Below are positions 18,021-64,000 of a DNA stretch of 64,000 nt, piece after piece. The DNA comes from Myxococcota bacterium (GTDB taxonomy: Bacteria; Myxococcota_A; Bradymonadia; UBA7976; UBA1532), in contig CAUJDF010000044.1 of NCBI GenBank assembly GCA_963169045.1, positions 1 to 64,000 of the forward strand. Reading direction: 5' to 3'. The number at the start of each line of letters is the position of its first letter. Position 1 is the stretch's first letter. The notes beneath the pieces are model-generated. The model was not told the origin of the DNA and searched no databases. It worked only from the letters and a program-made list of their open reading frames with translations. Made by a program: the position numbers and the translations under genes.

Positions 18021-19468
18021 CGTCCCGCCCGGCGACGCCGCACGCCGAAGGCCGCGAGCAGCAGCAGCGCCGCCGGCGTCGACCCGGTCGCGTCGGTGCC
18101 GCGACAGCCGTCGGAGGCCGCGCCGCCGCCGCCGCCCGTCGCCTCGACGACCGTCAGCGCGCCCTCGAGCCGCGCCTCGGACGCGCCGGAGGCCGCCACG
18201 ACGTCGTAGCGTCCGGGCGGGAGGGTCGTGCCCAGGCGGCCGAGGGCACGCTGCGGCGACTCGACGACGACCGCCTCGAGGACGACCGCCCCCGCGCGGA
18301 ACGTCGTCGCCGCGTCGAAGCCGTCGCCGTCCACGACGAGCACGGCTCGGTCGTCGGCGGCGATCACCTCCGGCTGGACGCGCGCCACCTTCAGCGTCGC
18401 GCCGGTGACCGTGAACGCGTCGGGCAGGATCGCCACCTGACCATCGGCCCGCGCGATCGAGAGCGCGTACGTCCCCGGCGGCAGGCCGGCGGGCACGATG
18501 GCGGTGATCGTCGAGCTCGACAGCACCGTCGTCTCGAGGAGCCGCGCGTCGCCGAGGGTCGCGCGCACCGCCGCGCCGAACGGAAAGCCGGCGCCGTTGA
18601 TCACCACCTCGGTGTTCCGGTCGGGCGGTCCGCGGTCGGGCACGATGCGCTCGATGGCGAGCTCGCCGGGCCGCGGCGCCCCGGCGTCGGGCGGGACGAC
18701 CCCGGCGTCCTCGTCGGAGGGCGGCTCGACCACCCGCGCGTCCGGCCGCGGTGGCGCGGCGGCGTCCGGGTCGGCGGGCCCGCCGTCCCGCGGCGGAGGC
18801 GGCGGCGGGCTGCCGTCCGGCGGCGGAGGTGGCGGCGGACCACCGTCGGGCAGCACGGCGCCGTCGTCCGGGCAGATCTCGTCGACGGCGACGACCTCCG
18901 CGCGGAGGATCCAGTCTCCGGGCGGCCGCGCGAGTGCGGCGTCATCGGGCATGTTCTCGGTGCGATCGAAGTAGTACTGGCCGTTCCGCTGCAAGAAGCT
19001 GACGTAGTTGTGGCCGGGTGTGATGCCGTCGGCGTCGCTCGCGATGGTCGGTGGCGCGCCGGCGCCGGGCACATGCTCCATCCAGACGCGAAAGCGGCGC
19101 GCATCGCTGACGACGTCGGAGCCGGCGAGGTCGATCGCGTTGAGCTGGTTGCGACTGCCGAACAACTGATAGGCGTCGAGGTCGCTATCCCAGATCAGGC
19201 CCTCGACCTGGTCGCCATCGCCCATCGCACTGAGTCGGATCGTGAAGATGTTGAAGTCGTTCGGGCCGATCCAGGCGAAGAGCGTGCAGATGCGGTAGAC
19301 GGGCAGGTCGTCGGGGACGTCGAGCACTGCGCCGAAGCCGTCCTCTCCGCTGAGGCCGCCGAAGAACGCGATCTGCGCGCCGGGCGCCGCCGTGTCGTTG
19401 CGGAGCAGGCGTCCGTGGGCCGGGACCGCCGCCGCGAGCGCGAGGACCACCGGTGCGATGCGACTCAT
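18017..19468 (-). CDS. IPT/TIG-domain surface protein with MYXO-CTERM-like tail
   Basis: 483 residues from ATG at 19468. A signal peptide (VVLALAAAVPAHG) precedes an N-terminal domain of ~190 residues, unrecognised, with an aromatic-rich beta pattern. Next comes a proline/glycine/aspartate linker (~215-300) that includes two near-identical PPPPPP-DG units. Residues ~300-450 hold one or two IPT/TIG-like immunoglobulin folds (IVPDRGPPDRNTEVVINGAGFPFG). The C-terminus has a single Cys (DGCRGT), a hydrophobic stretch (PAALLLLAAFGV) and RRRRAGR, the layout of a MYXO-CTERM-like sorting signal. It is probably exported and surface anchored. It is coupled to the beta-helix gene by GTGA. Confidence 0.75.
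   Translation of the reverse strand: MSRIAPVVLALAAAVPAHGRLLRNDTAAPGAQIAFFGGLSGEDGFGAVLDVPDDLPVYRICTLFAWIGPNDFNIFTIRLSAMGDGDQVEGLIWDSDLDAYQLFGSRNQLNAIDLAGSDVVSDARRFRVWMEHVPGAGAPPTIASDADGITPGHNYVSFLQRNGQYYFDRTENMPDDAALARPPGDWILRAEVVAVDEICPDDGAVLPDGGPPPPPPPDGSPPPPPPRDGGPADPDAAAPPRPDARVVEPPSDEDAGVVPPDAGAPRPGELAIERIVPDRGPPDRNTEVVINGAGFPFGAAVRATLGDARLLETTVLSSSTITAIVPAGLPPGTYALSIARADGQVAILPDAFTVTGATLKVARVQPEVIAADDRAVLVVDGDGFDAATTFRAGAVVLEAVVVESPQRALGRLGTTLPPGRYDVVAASGASEARLEGALTVVEATGGGGGAASDGCRGTDATGSTPAALLLLAAFGVRRRRAGR
18785..18842. repeat. Proline-codon direct repeat
   Basis: Two imperfect copies of a roughly 28-base GC-rich unit (GGCGGAGG-GGCGGCGG plus CCGTCC) lie in tandem inside the IPT/TIG gene. 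They encode the two polyproline-aspartate-glycine linkers. Repeat slippage could vary the linker length. Confidence 0.5.
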
Positions 19469-19508
19469 GTCGCCGAGCGTGTCACGGAAGGCCGCGAGGC
19501 GGCAATGG

Positions 19509-19807
19509 TCAGCGGTGGCAGCGCGCGCACAGGGGCGGGGTGTGGCACGTCGCGCAGCGGCGGCCGTCGAGGCGCGCGGCGGCGGCATGTGGCGAACCCG
19601 CGAAGCCCGGCCGGTGGTCGCGCGGCGGCGCGCTCCGGTGGCAGCGCGCGCAGGGCTCCGGTCCGTGGCAATCGACGCACCTCTCGGCGGCCCCCCCGTC
19701 GTGCCGCCGCGAGAAGGCGGGCCCGTGGTCGGGCGGAGGCGCGGGACGCTCCGGAGCCGGCGCGGGCGGCGCGCAGGCGGGCACGAGGACGCAGAGGAGG
19801 AGCCACC

Positions 19808-19811
<4 letters not shown>
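19509..19811 (-). CDS. Tetraheme c-type cytochrome lipoprotein
   Basis: 100 residues from ATG at 19811, which overlaps the barrel gene's stop in ATGA. The lipobox is VLVPAC. It has four CXXCH heme sites: CVDCH, CARCH, CATCH and CARCH. They form two copies of one module, each with DH-x-P-x-F and an outer His followed by CXXCH-x4-CXXCH, so the gene is an internal duplication of a diheme unit ('paired CXXCH' type). The product should be exported, heme-loaded and lipid-anchored. The tight coupling to an outer-membrane barrel suggests a porin-cytochrome style conduit, but four hemes in 100 residues would span only part of the membrane. Confidence 0.85.
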
Positions 19812-22848
<3,037 letters not shown>

Positions 22849-58252: not shown

Positions 58253-58354
58253 GGACGGGGCGCCTCGGCCGATGATGGCCGTTCGACCGATCATGCCCGT
58301 TCGGATTGACATTGCCAACCGGGCCGGGATTGCCCGACATTGGGGTTCCAGCCC

Positions 58355-59272
58355 GTGACCGCACCGGACGCCCACACCCTGACGGGCCGGCACGTCGAGG
58401 CGTTCATCGACGCCCGCGGCGCCCGCCTCCTCGACCTGCTGAACGAGCCGCCGGCGGCCGACGCGGCGTGGGCGAGCTACAGCCACGGTGCGTTCGTCCG
58501 CGTGCGCAGTCCGCACCCGGCGCTGTTCGACCGGCTCGTGGTGGTGCTCGTCCGCCCCGGCGAGCAGACGACCGAGGACTTCCGGCGCTGGGCCGAACAG
58601 CGGCTCGCGCAGCTCGACCGCTACATGCAGGCCGCGAACACGGGCAAGGTCGTCCGCACGGTGCCCCGCGATCGCTGCGTCGTGGGCGTGGTGATGCGGC
58701 GCGTCGGCCGCGATCCCGGCGATCCGCGGGCGGAGCTGCCGCCGCTCGACGACATCGCCGGCGTGCTGGGGCGCTTCGCCCGCGAGGTGGAGCGCTACGT
58801 GCGCGTGATGGGCGACGATGGCCTGCGGTACGTGCGGGCCCTGCGTCTCCACGCGATCCCGCGGCGCGGACGCTCGCCGGAGTACGTCCTCGGCCTCGAC
58901 GCGCTCCAGACGGTGCTCGGTCTCCGCGAGGCGCCGCTCGCGCTGGCGCCGGCGACGCTCGTCCGCGGCATCGTCGGCGAAATGGCCCAGCTGGTGCGCG
59001 GTCGCGGTGACGAGCTGCGCATGGAGAGGACGCCGTTCCGGCCCCTCCGCGCGCTCCGACGCGCCCACCGCCGCCACCGCCACGAAGCGCTCGCCGCGGC
59101 GCTCGAGGCGGTCGGCGCGCGCATCGAAGGCAACGGCGCCGATCCGTCGACCGCCGCGCGCTGGCTCGAGGCGGTGCGTGTGCCGCGGATGACGTTCCCG
59201 ATCCGCGTGGTGCTGAGCGCGCTCGCCCTCGGCGCGGTGGGGGCGGCGACCTGGTTCGCCTTCAGGGCGTGA
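58355..59272 (+). CDS. Unknown protein with C-terminal membrane anchor
   Basis: 305 residues from GTG at 58355; TTG at 58340 is an alternative. It is hydrophilic and helix-rich, with a GRHVEAFIDARGARLLD start, then one transmembrane segment at ~283-302 (VVLSALALGAVGAATWFAF) near the C-terminus, giving a tail-anchored look. No family recognised. It is divergent from the binding-protein gene; its last 11 bases overlap the convergent cytochrome-like gene. Confidence 0.6.
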   Translation: MTAPDAHTLTGRHVEAFIDARGARLLDLLNEPPAADAAWASYSHGAFVRVRSPHPALFDRLVVVLVRPGEQTTEDFRRWAEQRLAQLDRYMQAANTGKVVRTVPRDRCVVGVVMRRVGRDPGDPRAELPPLDDIAGVLGRFAREVERYVRVMGDDGLRYVRALRLHAIPRRGRSPEYVLGLDALQTVLGLREAPLALAPATLVRGIVGEMAQLVRGRGDELRMERTPFRPLRALRRAHRRHRHEALAAALEAVGARIEGNGADPSTAARWLEAVRVPRMTFPIRVVLSALALGAVGAATWFAFRA

Positions 59273-60176
59273 CGCCCGACACGATCCAGTCCTTCAACAT
59301 GACGAAGTTCGGGTCGCTGGTGCCGTGAAAGACCTCGCGACCGCCGTGGGTGGGCTCCAGGGGCTTCTGAAGGATGCGCGAGTCGATGGGCGCGACCGGA
59401 TCGACGTACCACTGCAACATCAGGAAGTTCCAGCGGCGGTCGCAGTCGGTGCCGCCGACCCGGAGCCAGTAGCCGCCGCCCATGCCGGGCACGCTGTGGC
59501 AATCGGCGCCCGTGCAGGTCTGCGTGAGCATGGGATCGATGCGCTCCCCGAAGCTGGCGTACCAGTCGGGCCCGCGGAGGCCGGACGGGTCGGGCAGGGC
59601 GCCGCAGGGCACCTCGAGATCGGGGCCGGAAGGCGCCGGGCCGACGCCAGCGTCGGGCGCCTCCTCCTTCGTGGCGTCGACGATCCACTGACGAATGGCG
59701 GCCGCCTCCTCGCTGCCCTCGAAGAACACGGGGGAAGGCGTCGAGTGGACCGGATCGCCGCCAGCGGAGCTGTACGGGTAGCGCAGGAGGTCGCTGGCGT
59801 CGGGGTTCGCGAAGTCGACGAACACCAACACCTCGTCGAGGTTCTGGCCGACCTCTTCGTCGGTCAGGCCGTCGACGGGGTGCGCCGGGCTGCCGAGCAG
59901 CTGGAGCTTGCGATCGGCACGCGGCGGCGGGCCGGCGTGGCAGGCAGCCGTCGAGCATCGGCGGTCGAGGATCGGCAGGACGACCGAGCGGAAGACCTCG
60001 ACGTCGGGCTCGACGTCGGACGGCAGCGGCGTGCCACCGCCGCCCGCTCCCCCCGCGCCGCCGCCGGCGTCGACGGTCCCCGCGTCGCTCTTCTCTTCGA
60101 GGTCGAGGGCTTCTCCCCCGCAGCCGAAGGCGCCGGCGACGAGCAGAGGGCCGAGGAGAGGTCGGACGCGTTGCAT
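59262..60176 (-). CDS. Lipoprotein with C-x4-CH heme-like motifs
   Basis: 304 residues from ATG at 60176, nine bases after the multiheme gene. The lipobox is LLVAGAFGC. A glycine-rich linker (GGGAGGAGGGG) precedes two domains, each with a C-x4-C-H motif (CSTAACH ~75 and CTGADCH ~221), the spacing seen in some multiheme and planctomycete-type cytochromes. Covalent heme attachment through C-x4-CH is possible but not certain. Extra cysteines (VPCGALPD, GGTDCDR) may form disulfides. It is probably an accessory subunit of the neighbouring 11-heme cytochrome. Confidence 0.65.
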   Translation of the reverse strand: MQRVRPLLGPLLVAGAFGCGGEALDLEEKSDAGTVDAGGGAGGAGGGGTPLPSDVEPDVEVFRSVVLPILDRRCSTAACHAGPPPRADRKLQLLGSPAHPVDGLTDEEVGQNLDEVLVFVDFANPDASDLLRYPYSSAGGDPVHSTPSPVFFEGSEEAAAIRQWIVDATKEEAPDAGVGPAPSGPDLEVPCGALPDPSGLRGPDWYASFGERIDPMLTQTCTGADCHSVPGMGGGYWLRVGGTDCDRRWNFLMLQWYVDPVAPIDSRILQKPLEPTHGGREVFHGTSDPNFVMLKDWIVSGVTP

Positions 60177-60185
60177 CGACCGAGC

Positions 60186-63100
60186 TTACTGATTCAGGAA
60201 GTTCGCCGCACCGCCCTGAGGCGCGCCGTTGGCGTCGATCCAGGAGTCGAGGATCCGGCCGTTGTTGGGGTCGGCCAGCTTCTGGATCGTCTGGGCGTCG
60301 AGCGTGCCGGCCATCTCGGGGTTGGACGATCCGATGCGCTGCTTGCCGTCGGCGGTCAGGCGCGGGTGGCTGCTCGACGAGTTCGGCACGCCGTTGGCCT
60401 CGACGATCCGGTCGGAGTCGTACTTCACGTTGTTGGCGTTGAAGTTGTTGGCCGGCGGGCCCTGGTTGCAGAAGCCACGCTGGTCGCGCTGGTCGAGCGG
60501 GTTCTCGGGGCAGCCCTCCTCGTCGAAGAGCATCAGGCCGGTACCGAGGCCCGCCGCCATGTGGACGAAGAACGGCGAGTTGAGCTGGTTGCCGGGGTTC
60601 TGGCCGATGTGCTGCTTGAGCAGGTTGAAGTTGAGCTGCGCGAAGTTGTTGTTCGCGTAGGCGGCACGGAACGCGGCGTACTGAGCGCCGAACTGGGCCA
60701 ACGACGCGTCGTTCAGGTGGCAGGAGACGCAGTAGCGCGGGCCTTCCTTGTCGTCGGCGATCTTGCCGCGGATGGAGTGCGCCGCCATCTGGTTGTGCGC
60801 CAGCGCCGGGAAGGCGTTGCGCCCGGCGTTCGCGGGGTTGTTGCCTTCGCCGAGACGGTCGGAGAAGGCGAACGTGGCCGACTCGACGTTGTTCAGGTCC
60901 TGGTAGCGGTAGAACGTCTTCTCGGCAGGCGAGACCTGGGTGATCTTGCCCTTGCTGTTGATGCCGAGGGTCATCCAGATGGGGTTCTGGTAGATGAAGT
61001 CTGCGTTGGCCTGCTTGAAGAGAATGCGCTCGCCGGTGACGTTGCTGAAGAAGTAATTGTTCGGATTGACGTCGTACTGGGTCTTCAGGTGGCAGCCGAT
61101 GCAGTTGTTCTGCCACGAACCGTGGCAGGCGACGCAGTCCATGTTGTCCATGTGGCTGAACCCGTTGCGGATTCGGGTGGGATCGGCCTGCTGCGGGCCG
61201 ATGCCGTTGTCCGGGTTGCCGTCGGCGCGACCCATCGCGTACGAGGCCTTCGGGCTGAAGAGCGGGCGGCTGTTGATGGGGTGCGTACGGCCGTTGTTGA
61301 CGGTGACGTCGCGCACCTGCGGGATGTAGTGGCGTTCGCCCGTCAGGCGGCTCACGAGCCAGAAGTTGGCCTGCGCGTCCTTCGTGACGTGCCGCAGGGG
61401 GTTGCCCTCGGCGTCGACGACGCACTGCGCCTGCTTCTGGTCGTAGGTGGTGCACGCCGCCGTCGCCGCGTACGCCTCGACCTCGCCGTGACAGGACTGG
61501 CAGCGGATGAGGACGTTCTGGTCCTGGTGGCTCATCAGGCGGCCGTTGGCGGCCGGATCGGCGGTGCCGCCGCCGTGCAGATCGCGGCTGCCGTGGCAGT
61601 CGATGCAGCCGAGACCGGCCTCGTAGTGGACGTCGGGCGGCGTATCGTCGCGGTTGTCGCCGTCATAGTCCTCGAGGAGGATGTACTGGTTCGCGTTGCG
61701 GCCGTTGAAGGTCGCATTGGCCACGGCCGGGTCATAGAGGCGCTCGTCGTTGGCCGTGGTGGCGAACGTCACCGGGTTCGCCGGGTACTGCAGGTTGTTG
61801 ACGAGGTCCTGGTTCTGGTCGAGGCGGATGCCCCAGTACTGCAGCACCGTGCGATTGGAGCCCTGGTGGCAGCCGACGCACGCACGGTCGCTGATGCCGC
61901 GCTGGAAGGCGCCGTTGGGCAAGATCTTGGCCACGTTGCGGATCTGGTGCGACAGCACGTGGGCGCGCTCACCGGGAGCGATGGCGTCGGGGTTTGCCGG
62001 CTCGTTCTTCGGCACGTTCGGGTCGTTGCTGCGGCTGCGACCGTCGTAGCTGTACTCCATGTGGCACGCCGTGCATCCCGAGGATCGGAAGTCGGCGTAA
62101 CGGTCGTTCTGGCCGGCGCTGTAGAGGTGGCAGTCGCCGCACGTGATCGCGAACTGCGTGCTCGTGAGCATGTCGAGGTTGCTGCCAGCGCGCACGCGGT
62201 TCGGGCGCTCGGGATCTTCGGCGGCGTTGACCACGTCGTTCGCGAGGGCGGCGGCGCTGAGGCTGGCGTTCTGGCGGAACGGCCCGTCCCACTGTCCTCG
62301 CTCGGGGAACTCCACAAGGTGGCCCATCTCGCCGATCTCACGCGTGTTCGGGTTGTAGGCCGGGTTGCTCACGTCGCGCGGCGCGTAGTCGCCGAGGCTG
62401 TCGCCGTCCATGTGGCGGCCGCGGTGCTCGGGGATGGCGTTCTCGACGCCGGTGTGGAAGCGCGAGCCGGAGAAGAGGCCGACAGAGGTGGCGATGGGCG
62501 TCCGCGGCACCCACTGGGCGTGCTGGTTGAAGTGGCAGCCCTCGGCGCCGCAGCCGCGGCCCTGCTCGACGACCCGCAGGTCGCCGGGGTTGACGAACTG
62601 CAGGTAGTCGAGGTTCGTCCACTGTTTGTCGGGCTGGTCGGGCGACGTGTACTGCTCGGGCTCCAGCTTGTCGATGCCCGCCAGCGTGCGACGGTTGAAG
62701 AAGGCCTTCGGGTTGAGGACCTGGTACTGCCGGTCGCCGATGCCCGGGGGCGGCGGCACGTGGCTGCCGAGCTTTCCCGCACCTTTCGGGTTGCCGCCGT
62801 GGCAGCCGGTGCAGGGGATGTTCTCGGCGCCTTGGAAGGGGTGCGGGTTCGAGAGGCCGGGGCCCGAGTAGTCGTTGCGCTGACCGCCGTTGTGGCAGTT
62901 CATGCACGTCTCGAGCTCCTGAACGGGCGGCGGCGGGCTGCCGCCATCGGCGTCGGGGCCCGGCACGCCGCCGTCGGGCGCGGCGTTGCACGTCGGATCC
63001 GGGTTGCAGTAGCCGGGGTCGCATTCACAACAGGCCAGCCGGTACTGGAAGTTCGTCTCGGTGCAGCGGTTCAGCGCCGTGCAGTCGTACGTCTCGCCGC

Positions 63101-63287
63101 GGTACTCCGCCGCGCGGCAGTCGACGGGGCCGCCACCGTCGGGGGTGGGGCCCGGCGTCCCCATGTCGCTGCCGGGCGCGGGGGTATCTCCGCCGAAGTC
63201 GACCTGGTCCTCCCCGCAGCCGATGGCCGTCGCCAGAACGGCGCACAGCGCGAGGACGTGGATGCGTCCGTGGTGCGACCCCGCCAT
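60186..63287 (-). CDS. Large surface multiheme c-type cytochrome (~11 hemes)
   Basis: 1033 residues from ATG at 63287 (GGGGGGAGACGAC upstream). The lipobox is LATAIGCGED. The N-terminus has a Cys-rich non-heme cluster (CCECDPGYC) and a Pro/Asp linker. Ten CXXCH sites follow: CMNCH, CTGCH, CGDCH, CTACH, CVGCH, CIDCH, CQSCH, CVACH, CIGCH and CVSCH, plus one C-x4-CH (CGAEGCH). Distal histidines are plentiful. The domain between hemes 8 and 9 contains a long heme-free stretch (~150 residues). It is probably on the outer membrane in electron transfer to or from an extracellular partner. The substrate is unknown. Confidence 0.88.
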   Translation of the reverse strand: MAGSHHGRIHVLALCAVLATAIGCGEDQVDFGGDTPAPGSDMGTPGPTPDGGGPVDCRAAEYRGETYDCTALNRCTETNFQYRLACCECDPGYCNPDPTCNAAPDGGVPGPDADGGSPPPPVQELETCMNCHNGGQRNDYSGPGLSNPHPFQGAENIPCTGCHGGNPKGAGKLGSHVPPPPGIGDRQYQVLNPKAFFNRRTLAGIDKLEPEQYTSPDQPDKQWTNLDYLQFVNPGDLRVVEQGRGCGAEGCHFNQHAQWVPRTPIATSVGLFSGSRFHTGVENAIPEHRGRHMDGDSLGDYAPRDVSNPAYNPNTREIGEMGHLVEFPERGQWDGPFRQNASLSAAALANDVVNAAEDPERPNRVRAGSNLDMLTSTQFAITCGDCHLYSAGQNDRYADFRSSGCTACHMEYSYDGRSRSNDPNVPKNEPANPDAIAPGERAHVLSHQIRNVAKILPNGAFQRGISDRACVGCHQGSNRTVLQYWGIRLDQNQDLVNNLQYPANPVTFATTANDERLYDPAVANATFNGRNANQYILLEDYDGDNRDDTPPDVHYEAGLGCIDCHGSRDLHGGGTADPAANGRLMSHQDQNVLIRCQSCHGEVEAYAATAACTTYDQKQAQCVVDAEGNPLRHVTKDAQANFWLVSRLTGERHYIPQVRDVTVNNGRTHPINSRPLFSPKASYAMGRADGNPDNGIGPQQADPTRIRNGFSHMDNMDCVACHGSWQNNCIGCHLKTQYDVNPNNYFFSNVTGERILFKQANADFIYQNPIWMTLGINSKGKITQVSPAEKTFYRYQDLNNVESATFAFSDRLGEGNNPANAGRNAFPALAHNQMAAHSIRGKIADDKEGPRYCVSCHLNDASLAQFGAQYAAFRAAYANNNFAQLNFNLLKQHIGQNPGNQLNSPFFVHMAAGLGTGLMLFDEEGCPENPLDQRDQRGFCNQGPPANNFNANNVKYDSDRIVEANGVPNSSSSHPRLTADGKQRIGSSNPEMAGTLDAQTIQKLADPNNGRILDSWIDANGAPQGGAANFLNQ

Positions 63288-63525: not shown

Positions 63526-64000
63526 GTGGGCAGGCAACTCTCCGCGCAGCTTCTGGTCGTCGACGACGACGGCCGCGTCCTCCGGGCGTGCGAAGAGCTG
63601 TTCTCGCCGGCCGGCTACGTCGTGCGGACGGCTCGCACGGCCGAGGACGCGCTCGACGAGCTGAAGCGGCGGCCGCCGTCCGCGCTGGTCACCGAGGTCG
63701 CGCTCCCGGGCATGGACGGCCTGACCCTCGTGCGCCGGGCGCGGCAGGGCGCGCCGTCGCTGGCCGTCATCGTGCTGACGGCCCATCCGTCCGCGCTCAC
63801 GGCCTCGCGGGCCCTGCGGCTCGGCGTCGACGACTACCTCATCAAGCACGCCGACTCGATGGGACATCTGCGTCGCGCGGTCCCGCGGGCTCTCCAGCGG
63901 CGCTCCCACCAGGCGGAGACCTCGCGTCTGCTCGCCGAGCTGGCCGATCTCAACGAAGAGTTCCTGCGCAGCATCGTCGCCCTCGAGAAGGCCAACCTCG
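63526..64000 (+). CDS. Receiver-domain protein with Glu in place of phospho-Asp (3' partial)
   Basis: Starts at GTG 63526, the first start after an in-frame TAA at 63514, and runs off the right edge (158 codons seen). Residues ~8-125 form a CheY-like receiver: VVDDDG acidic pocket (11-16), PGMDG (61-65), VLTAH (Thr) and YLIKHAD (Lys). The phosphoacceptor position reads ALVTEVALP with Glu57, which may mimic phosphorylation. A coiled coil (ETSRLLAELADLNEEFL) follows and leads into an unseen output domain. Divergent from the cytochrome gene. Confidence 0.8.
   Translation, partial: MGRQLSAQLLVVDDDGRVLRACEELFSPAGYVVRTARTAEDALDELKRRPPSALVTEVALPGMDGLTLVRRARQGAPSLAVIVLTAHPSALTASRALRLGVDDYLIKHADSMGHLRRAVPRALQRRSHQAETSRLLAELADLNEEFLRSIVALEKANL

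Follow-up and report, generated by a model that had tools for sequence, protein, structure and literature searches.

A conserved two-gene cytochrome module of Myxococcota with drifting heme-motif spacing

Two neighboring genes in a 9.0-Mb Myxococcota assembly form a real, conserved, and as yet uncharacterised cytochrome module, which belongs among the known multiheme cytochromes as a variant and not as a new kind of system. The genes, here called A and B, lie near the right end of the window, i.e., the whole stretch of DNA analysed (64,000 nucleotides; contig C44, positions 1-64000). Their most useful lead is the drift of heme-motif spacing at homologous sites.

The gene pair and its conservation

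The features of the locus, with their conservation among 21 full-length homologs of A and 14 homologs of B, are as follows:

60186..63287, minus strand: A, 1033-aa predicted 11-heme lipoprotein, ExtM-like long form (open reading frame, motifs, homologs, NF040943 match)
63216..63218, minus strand: A, lipobox cysteine Cys24 (21/21)
62892..62906, minus strand: A, heme site 1, CMNCH, residue 128 (21/21)
62799..62813, minus strand: A, heme site 2, CTGCH, residue 159 (21/21)
62532..62552, minus strand: A, heme site 3, C-x4-CH (CGAEGCH), residue 246 (21/21 in the long form)
62127..62141, minus strand: A, heme site 4, CGDCH, residue 383 (21/21)
62061..62075, minus strand: A, heme site 5, CTACH, residue 405 (21/21)
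61866..61880, minus strand: A, heme site 6, CVGCH, residue 470 (21/21)
61593..61607, minus strand: A, heme site 7, CIDCH, residue 561 (21/21)
61488..61502, minus strand: A, heme site 8, CQSCH, residue 596 (21/21)
61122..61136, minus strand: A, heme site 9, CVACH, residue 718 (21/21)
61089..61103, minus strand: A, heme site 10, CIGCH, residue 729 (21/21)
60717..60731, minus strand: A, heme site 11, CVSCH, residue 853 (20/21)
59262..60176, minus strand: B, 304-aa lipoprotein with two putative FoxE/HZS-alpha-like monoheme domains (open reading frame, motifs, conserved 3' of A, FoxE 5mab match)
60120..60122, minus strand: B, lipobox cysteine Cys19 (14/14)
59937..59957, minus strand: B, heme site 1, CSTAACH, residue 74 (CxnCH 14/14, n = 2, 4 or 5)
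59496..59516, minus strand: B, heme site 2, CTGADCH, residue 221, with the downstream invariant His277 (CxnCH 14/14)
58340-59272: convergent gene left of B, without known domain
63526..64000, plus strand: divergent neighbor, response-regulator-receiver protein running past the window end (PF00072, 1.8e-46, on L030:3527-4525)

B follows A on the same strand after a gap of 9 bases (60177-60185), and the operon consists of these two genes only. Codon usage backs both reading frames, third-position GC being 0.94 (A) and 0.90 (B). Each protein begins with a signal peptide and a lipobox (LATAIG-C24-G in A, LVAGAFG-C19-G in B), and the lack of an aspartate at position +2 conforms to what is expected of outer-membrane lipoproteins. 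A sigma-70-like promoter was searched for at the pair and none was found, which carries little weight in a G+C-rich genome. The adjacency of the receiver-protein gene to the pair is not conserved in relatives.

All 33 heme-motif residues of A, including those of the C-x4-CH site, are invariant or nearly so among the 21 homologs. CXXCH is absent from B; both of its heme sites are C-x4-CH, and in both domains the CxnCH triad and a downstream histidine are kept in 14/14 homologs. Both proteins thus have the conserved Cys-Cys-His attachment motifs of c-type cytochromes, and heme is probably bound at all 13 sites. The motif scan agrees with the first-pass annotation, which had described a 1033-residue lipoprotein with ten CXXCH and one C-x4-CH motif beside a lipoprotein with two C-x4-CH motifs; that this pair is real and not due to chance is borne out by the retention of the triads across 21 and 14 homologs, and that it is co-conserved by the recurrence of B directly 3' of A at 14 loci in 13 Myxococcota genomes.

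Full-length A homologs, most of them 50-70% identical, were found in the host family (f1), in order-mates (f2), in family f7, in the more distant families f42, f59, and f60, and in one f19 genome. B is missing beside extra copies of A in two genomes (G008 and G012) and in families f42 and f59; it therefore accompanies one branch of the A family and is not obligatory. In family f42, a DUF3570 protein (7e-34) takes the place of B directly after the A homolog (L088:169-5016 and L089:303-4656). DUF3570 has been studied as a family of flavinylated extracytosolic redox proteins (PMC8238504); an SGAT-type flavinylation motif was sought in these two f42 proteins and not seen. A wider conserved neighborhood was also considered, but sucAB/lpd or an Lgt-like gene recur at some loci only, which looks like shared synteny.

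Relationship of A and B to known cytochromes

The best named relative of A is ExtM (NF040943, E = 6.6e-21), at a score of 74.2 bits that indicates homology and stays below the curated equivalog cut-off of 800. The same profile matched 22 of the 23 A-family rows, with a best value of 8.7e-68. Shorter ExtM-like proteins (roughly 660-980 aa) are spread over Myxococcota, and the long form (21 rows, support 100/99) separates from them in the tree. These comparisons place A on the long branch of a family of Myxococcota proteins that has a distant relationship to ExtM of Geobacter. ExtM (GSU2935) is the 12-heme cytochrome of the extHIJKLMNOPQS cluster (PMC5877670). A is related to it over three sequence stretches, and the two have in common their multiheme nature and a link to extracytoplasmic electron transfer. 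They differ in that ExtM has 12 motifs in about 600 aa and A 11 motifs in about 1030 aa, and in that A is a lipoprotein with a Cys-rich N-terminus, accompanied by the diheme partner B instead of ext cluster genes: none of those sought (porin, selenocysteine cytochrome, Rieske protein, cytochrome b) lies near A in this genome or in relatives.

Outside motifs, ten histidines of A are near-invariant in the 21 homologs (149, 176, 256, 443, 447, 554, 571, 653, 712, and 837). With the near-invariant Met685, the candidate distal ligands number eleven, as many as the hemes, which is a count and not a structure; the AlphaFold model of A (23-row alignment) was unusable at a pLDDT of 51.6. This number bears on whether A catalyses a reaction. 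A might be a terminal oxidoreductase (e.g., for selenite, tellurite, nitrite, or a sulfur oxyanion) in which one heme is the active site and B the electron donor. The ext cluster, where the closest named family sits, is linked to selenite and tellurite reduction in Geobacter, both of which are affected by its porin ExtI (PMC5877670), and the region of hemes 7-8 in A gave weak profile matches with NrfA and MccA. However, the conserved candidate ligands equal the hemes in number, neither CXXCK nor another active-site motif was found in A, the ext partners do not adjoin it, and a catalytic role is not established for ExtM itself, all of which makes an oxidoreductase unlikely. A is more plausibly an 11-heme relay of the ExtM-like family, its sites probably all heme-loaded and six-coordinate, so that it would conduct rather than catalyse.

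The short ExtM-like cytochromes are often preceded by a lipoprotein of their own of 150-200 aa (L044, L046, L047, L048, L095, L096, L100, and L101). The two of these lipoproteins that were examined contain neither a heme motif nor a Pfam match, and the arrangement seems to be a different type of conserved pair.

A profile built from the 14 B proteins matched FoxE (5mab; E = 0.0019) and, weakly, hydrazine synthase alpha (HZS-alpha; E = 0.21). The alignments span the heme motif and, with the C-terminal domain of FoxE, also the segment after it. The likeness of B to Planctomycete cytochromes rests on these two matches, as a Pfam search of the 14 homologs at E up to 1 returned no such (PSCyt1-like) family. 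B also missed the cut-offs of GSu_C4xC__C2xCH (PF09698/TIGR01904; 11.6 bits vs 21.7, and 13.3 vs 27), and its AlphaFold model (pLDDT 74.7) gave nothing significant in a Foldseek search against the PDB. B is read as two monoheme cytochrome domains distantly resembling FoxE and HZS-alpha. Domains of that type have CXXCH, where B has C-x4-CH and some of its homologs C-x5-CH, and they usually carry a methionine where B has a conserved histidine. His277 is probably an axial ligand, and the conserved histidines make His/His ligation probable in both domains.

Paralogs of the B domains occur in the same genome, in a hydrazine-synthase-alpha-like protein (PF18582, 2.9e-11) and its neighbors, with motif spacings of 2, 3, and 4. 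In one cluster (G000:C91:44841-51386; L071), hydrazine-synthase-alpha-like proteins carrying C-x4-CH domains are encoded together with a DUF3570 protein and a small lipoprotein that has C-x4-CH; C-x4-CH proteins resembling those of this cluster flank a distant A paralog in L043.

Variable motif spacing and heme attachment

The third heme site of A follows a conserved F(I/V)NPGDLRV-like segment. It is C-x4-CH throughout the long form; in the short form it is CGVCH (CX2CH), of the CGGEGCH type (CX4CH), or of the CGAGSPRAGGSGCH type (CX11CH). On the tree, the labels at this site change five times, and one row is unlabelled (L045, itself CX4), which amounts to at least four spacing changes. The sites of B also vary by genome, the first being CX2CH, CX4CH, or CX5CH and the second CX4CH or CX5CH. 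Further C-x4-CH motifs are present elsewhere in the genome, four of them in a single 22-motif cytochrome encoded on contig C71 and others in proteins of C91 and C57. Non-canonical sites are known from proteins unrelated to A and B: C-x4-CH in cytochrome c3 of Desulfovibrio (PMC10454114), CXXXCH and CXXXXCH in MmcA of Methanosarcina, both shown by mass spectrometry to carry heme (PMC11024163), and a site with a 14-residue loop in OmcZ of Geobacter (PMC9473688).

A literature search found the terms CX5CH or CX11CH in no paper, within its incomplete coverage. To our knowledge, variation of a single homologous site between CX2, CX4, and CX11 has not been reported. The third site of A and the two sites of B thus provide a natural series for probing what a System I heme synthase actually recognises.

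The variable spacing might be taken to mean that the C-x4-CH sites are free of heme, in which case A would be a decaheme protein and B not a cytochrome; the spacing is non-canonical and differs between homologs. Yet the Cys-Cys-His triads stay invariant as the spacing drifts, the corresponding site is CXXCH in some relatives, the downstream histidine is always kept, and the CXXXXCH of MmcA carries heme (PMC11024163). Heme-free sites are therefore very improbable.

A check for cytochrome c maturation genes, proposed in the first-pass annotation, turned up a Ccm set: genes for CcmE, CcmF, CcmA, a CcmC-type, and a CcmD-like protein on contig C39, and one for a CcmH-like protein with an atypical CX6C on C38. 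The latter (G000:C38:14011-14442; L105) has CPGKTLQTC apparently in place of the usual LRCxxC. The motif of CcmE is CPSKY, i.e., of the CXXXY type found in Desulfovibrio and archaea (PMC9084895, PMC3884852), including Methanosarcina. It is through this System I that heme would be attached to A and B, the C-x4-CH sites included.

Two candidates for a factor dedicated to C-x4-CH were rejected. The search with PF01578 recovered CcmF, the CcmC-type protein, and one further member, and no obvious second CcmF that could be a special heme lyase. The CXXXY CcmE does not track the C-x4-CH of A, because it was also found in relatives without the pair; all relatives examined have it. A System I of the type that handles CX4CH elsewhere is thus present and not specific to A/B. 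The C-x4-CH spacing had been called rare and in need of a compatible lyase. Because it is variable in relatives, common in the genome, and known elsewhere, this was only partly right: a compatible System I is there, while the spacing is no rarity here and nothing points to a special lyase.

Location and electron exchange

With moderate confidence, we favor the reading that the two genes specify an electron-transfer module lipid-anchored in the outer membrane, with A as the relay, B as a docking diheme protein, and the hemes supplied via Ccm. B, with its two FoxE-like and probably His/His-ligated domains, would dock on A and hand electrons on to a further partner or take them up from it. The lipoboxes suggest that A/B most likely moves electrons at the outer membrane, and it possibly faces outward.

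A is no surface decaheme cytochrome of the OmcA/MtrC family (TIGR03507, cut-off 209 bits): the profile matched one of the 23 A-family rows, at 1.2e-5, and not A of the window itself. Like the members of OmcA/MtrC porin-cytochrome conduits (TIGR03507, Pcc), A is a multiheme lipoprotein, but it falls below the family cut-off, and the A-B operon contains neither the barrel nor the periplasmic multiheme cytochrome of such a conduit; an inner-membrane quinol dehydrogenase was not found in it either. Across 58 genomes, MtrC/OmcA and A co-occur (p = 0.0005), which was considered as proof of extracellular transfer and dismissed: within families carrying A, the association is lost (8/6/4/4, p = 1), so that it reflects descent.

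The order-mates of family f2 carry the pair without any MtrC/OmcA above the cut-off. This would fit a role confined to the periplasm, with A/B as an electron buffer or as a link between the quinol pool and an oxidase, and so would the several COX1-type oxidases of the genome, the sucAB/lpd genes adjoining some loci of the pair, and an operon without a porin. The lipid anchors, the large size, additional conserved cysteines that suggest disulfides, and the DUF3570 neighbor of A in family f42 point instead to the outer membrane, and a purely periplasmic role is, like catalysis, not likely. A bolder proposal, which we put forward tentatively and regard as doubtful, extends the outer-membrane module: the CXXXY-CcmE System I of Myxococcota would be largely blind to spacing, letting homologous sites drift between CX2CH, CX4CH, CX5CH, and CX11CH, and the A-type cytochrome would be a novel module for electron exchange at the outer membrane of aerobic-type bacteria, working with a diheme cap (B) or with a DUF3570 outer-membrane protein.

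At the level of the genome, extracellular electron exchange by the organism is plausible. A true OmcA/MtrC-family cytochrome is encoded on contig C71 (TIGR03507, 4.8e-99, above the cut-off), and COX1 searches gave seven matches above the cut-off, in keeping with the description of an apparently aerobic-type organism in the first-pass annotation. In this uncultured Myxococcota genome, several oxidases occur alongside large multiheme clusters, one including an OmcA/MtrC-family member; a literature search of incomplete coverage returned no paper devoted mainly to extracellular electron transfer in uncultured Myxococcota lineages.

The C71 cluster (C71:51914-60123; L204:6914-15123) has five genes, for a 22-motif lipoprotein (18 CXXCH and four CX4CH), a putative barrel, a 13-CXXCH lipoprotein, a 30-CXXCH protein with an NrfH-like N-terminus, and a collagen-repeat OmcA/MtrC-family decaheme cytochrome. 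From its predicted products, it looks like an electron route from the inner membrane to the surface. At G000:C94:34094-37614 (L205:6094-9614), the gene for a 739-aa cytochrome containing 30 CXXCH precedes that for a barrel-like protein of 467 aa. In the window, positions 19511-21340 (minus strand) encode a 510-aa barrel-like PEGA-domain protein and then a tetraheme lipoprotein of ∼100 aa; a 378-aa open reading frame over the tetraheme motifs (19465-20601) was discarded as being in the wrong frame, the ∼100-aa lipoprotein being the likely gene. Any connection of this locus to A/B, which the first-pass annotation drew in favor of extracellular electron exchange, is hypothetical. Finally, G000:C8:9660-11816 (L207:6660-8816) carries an NrfH-like tetraheme gene and, after it, a 557-aa frame containing five CXXCH; in this otherwise oxidase-rich genome, the two may be an NrfHA nitrite reductase pair.
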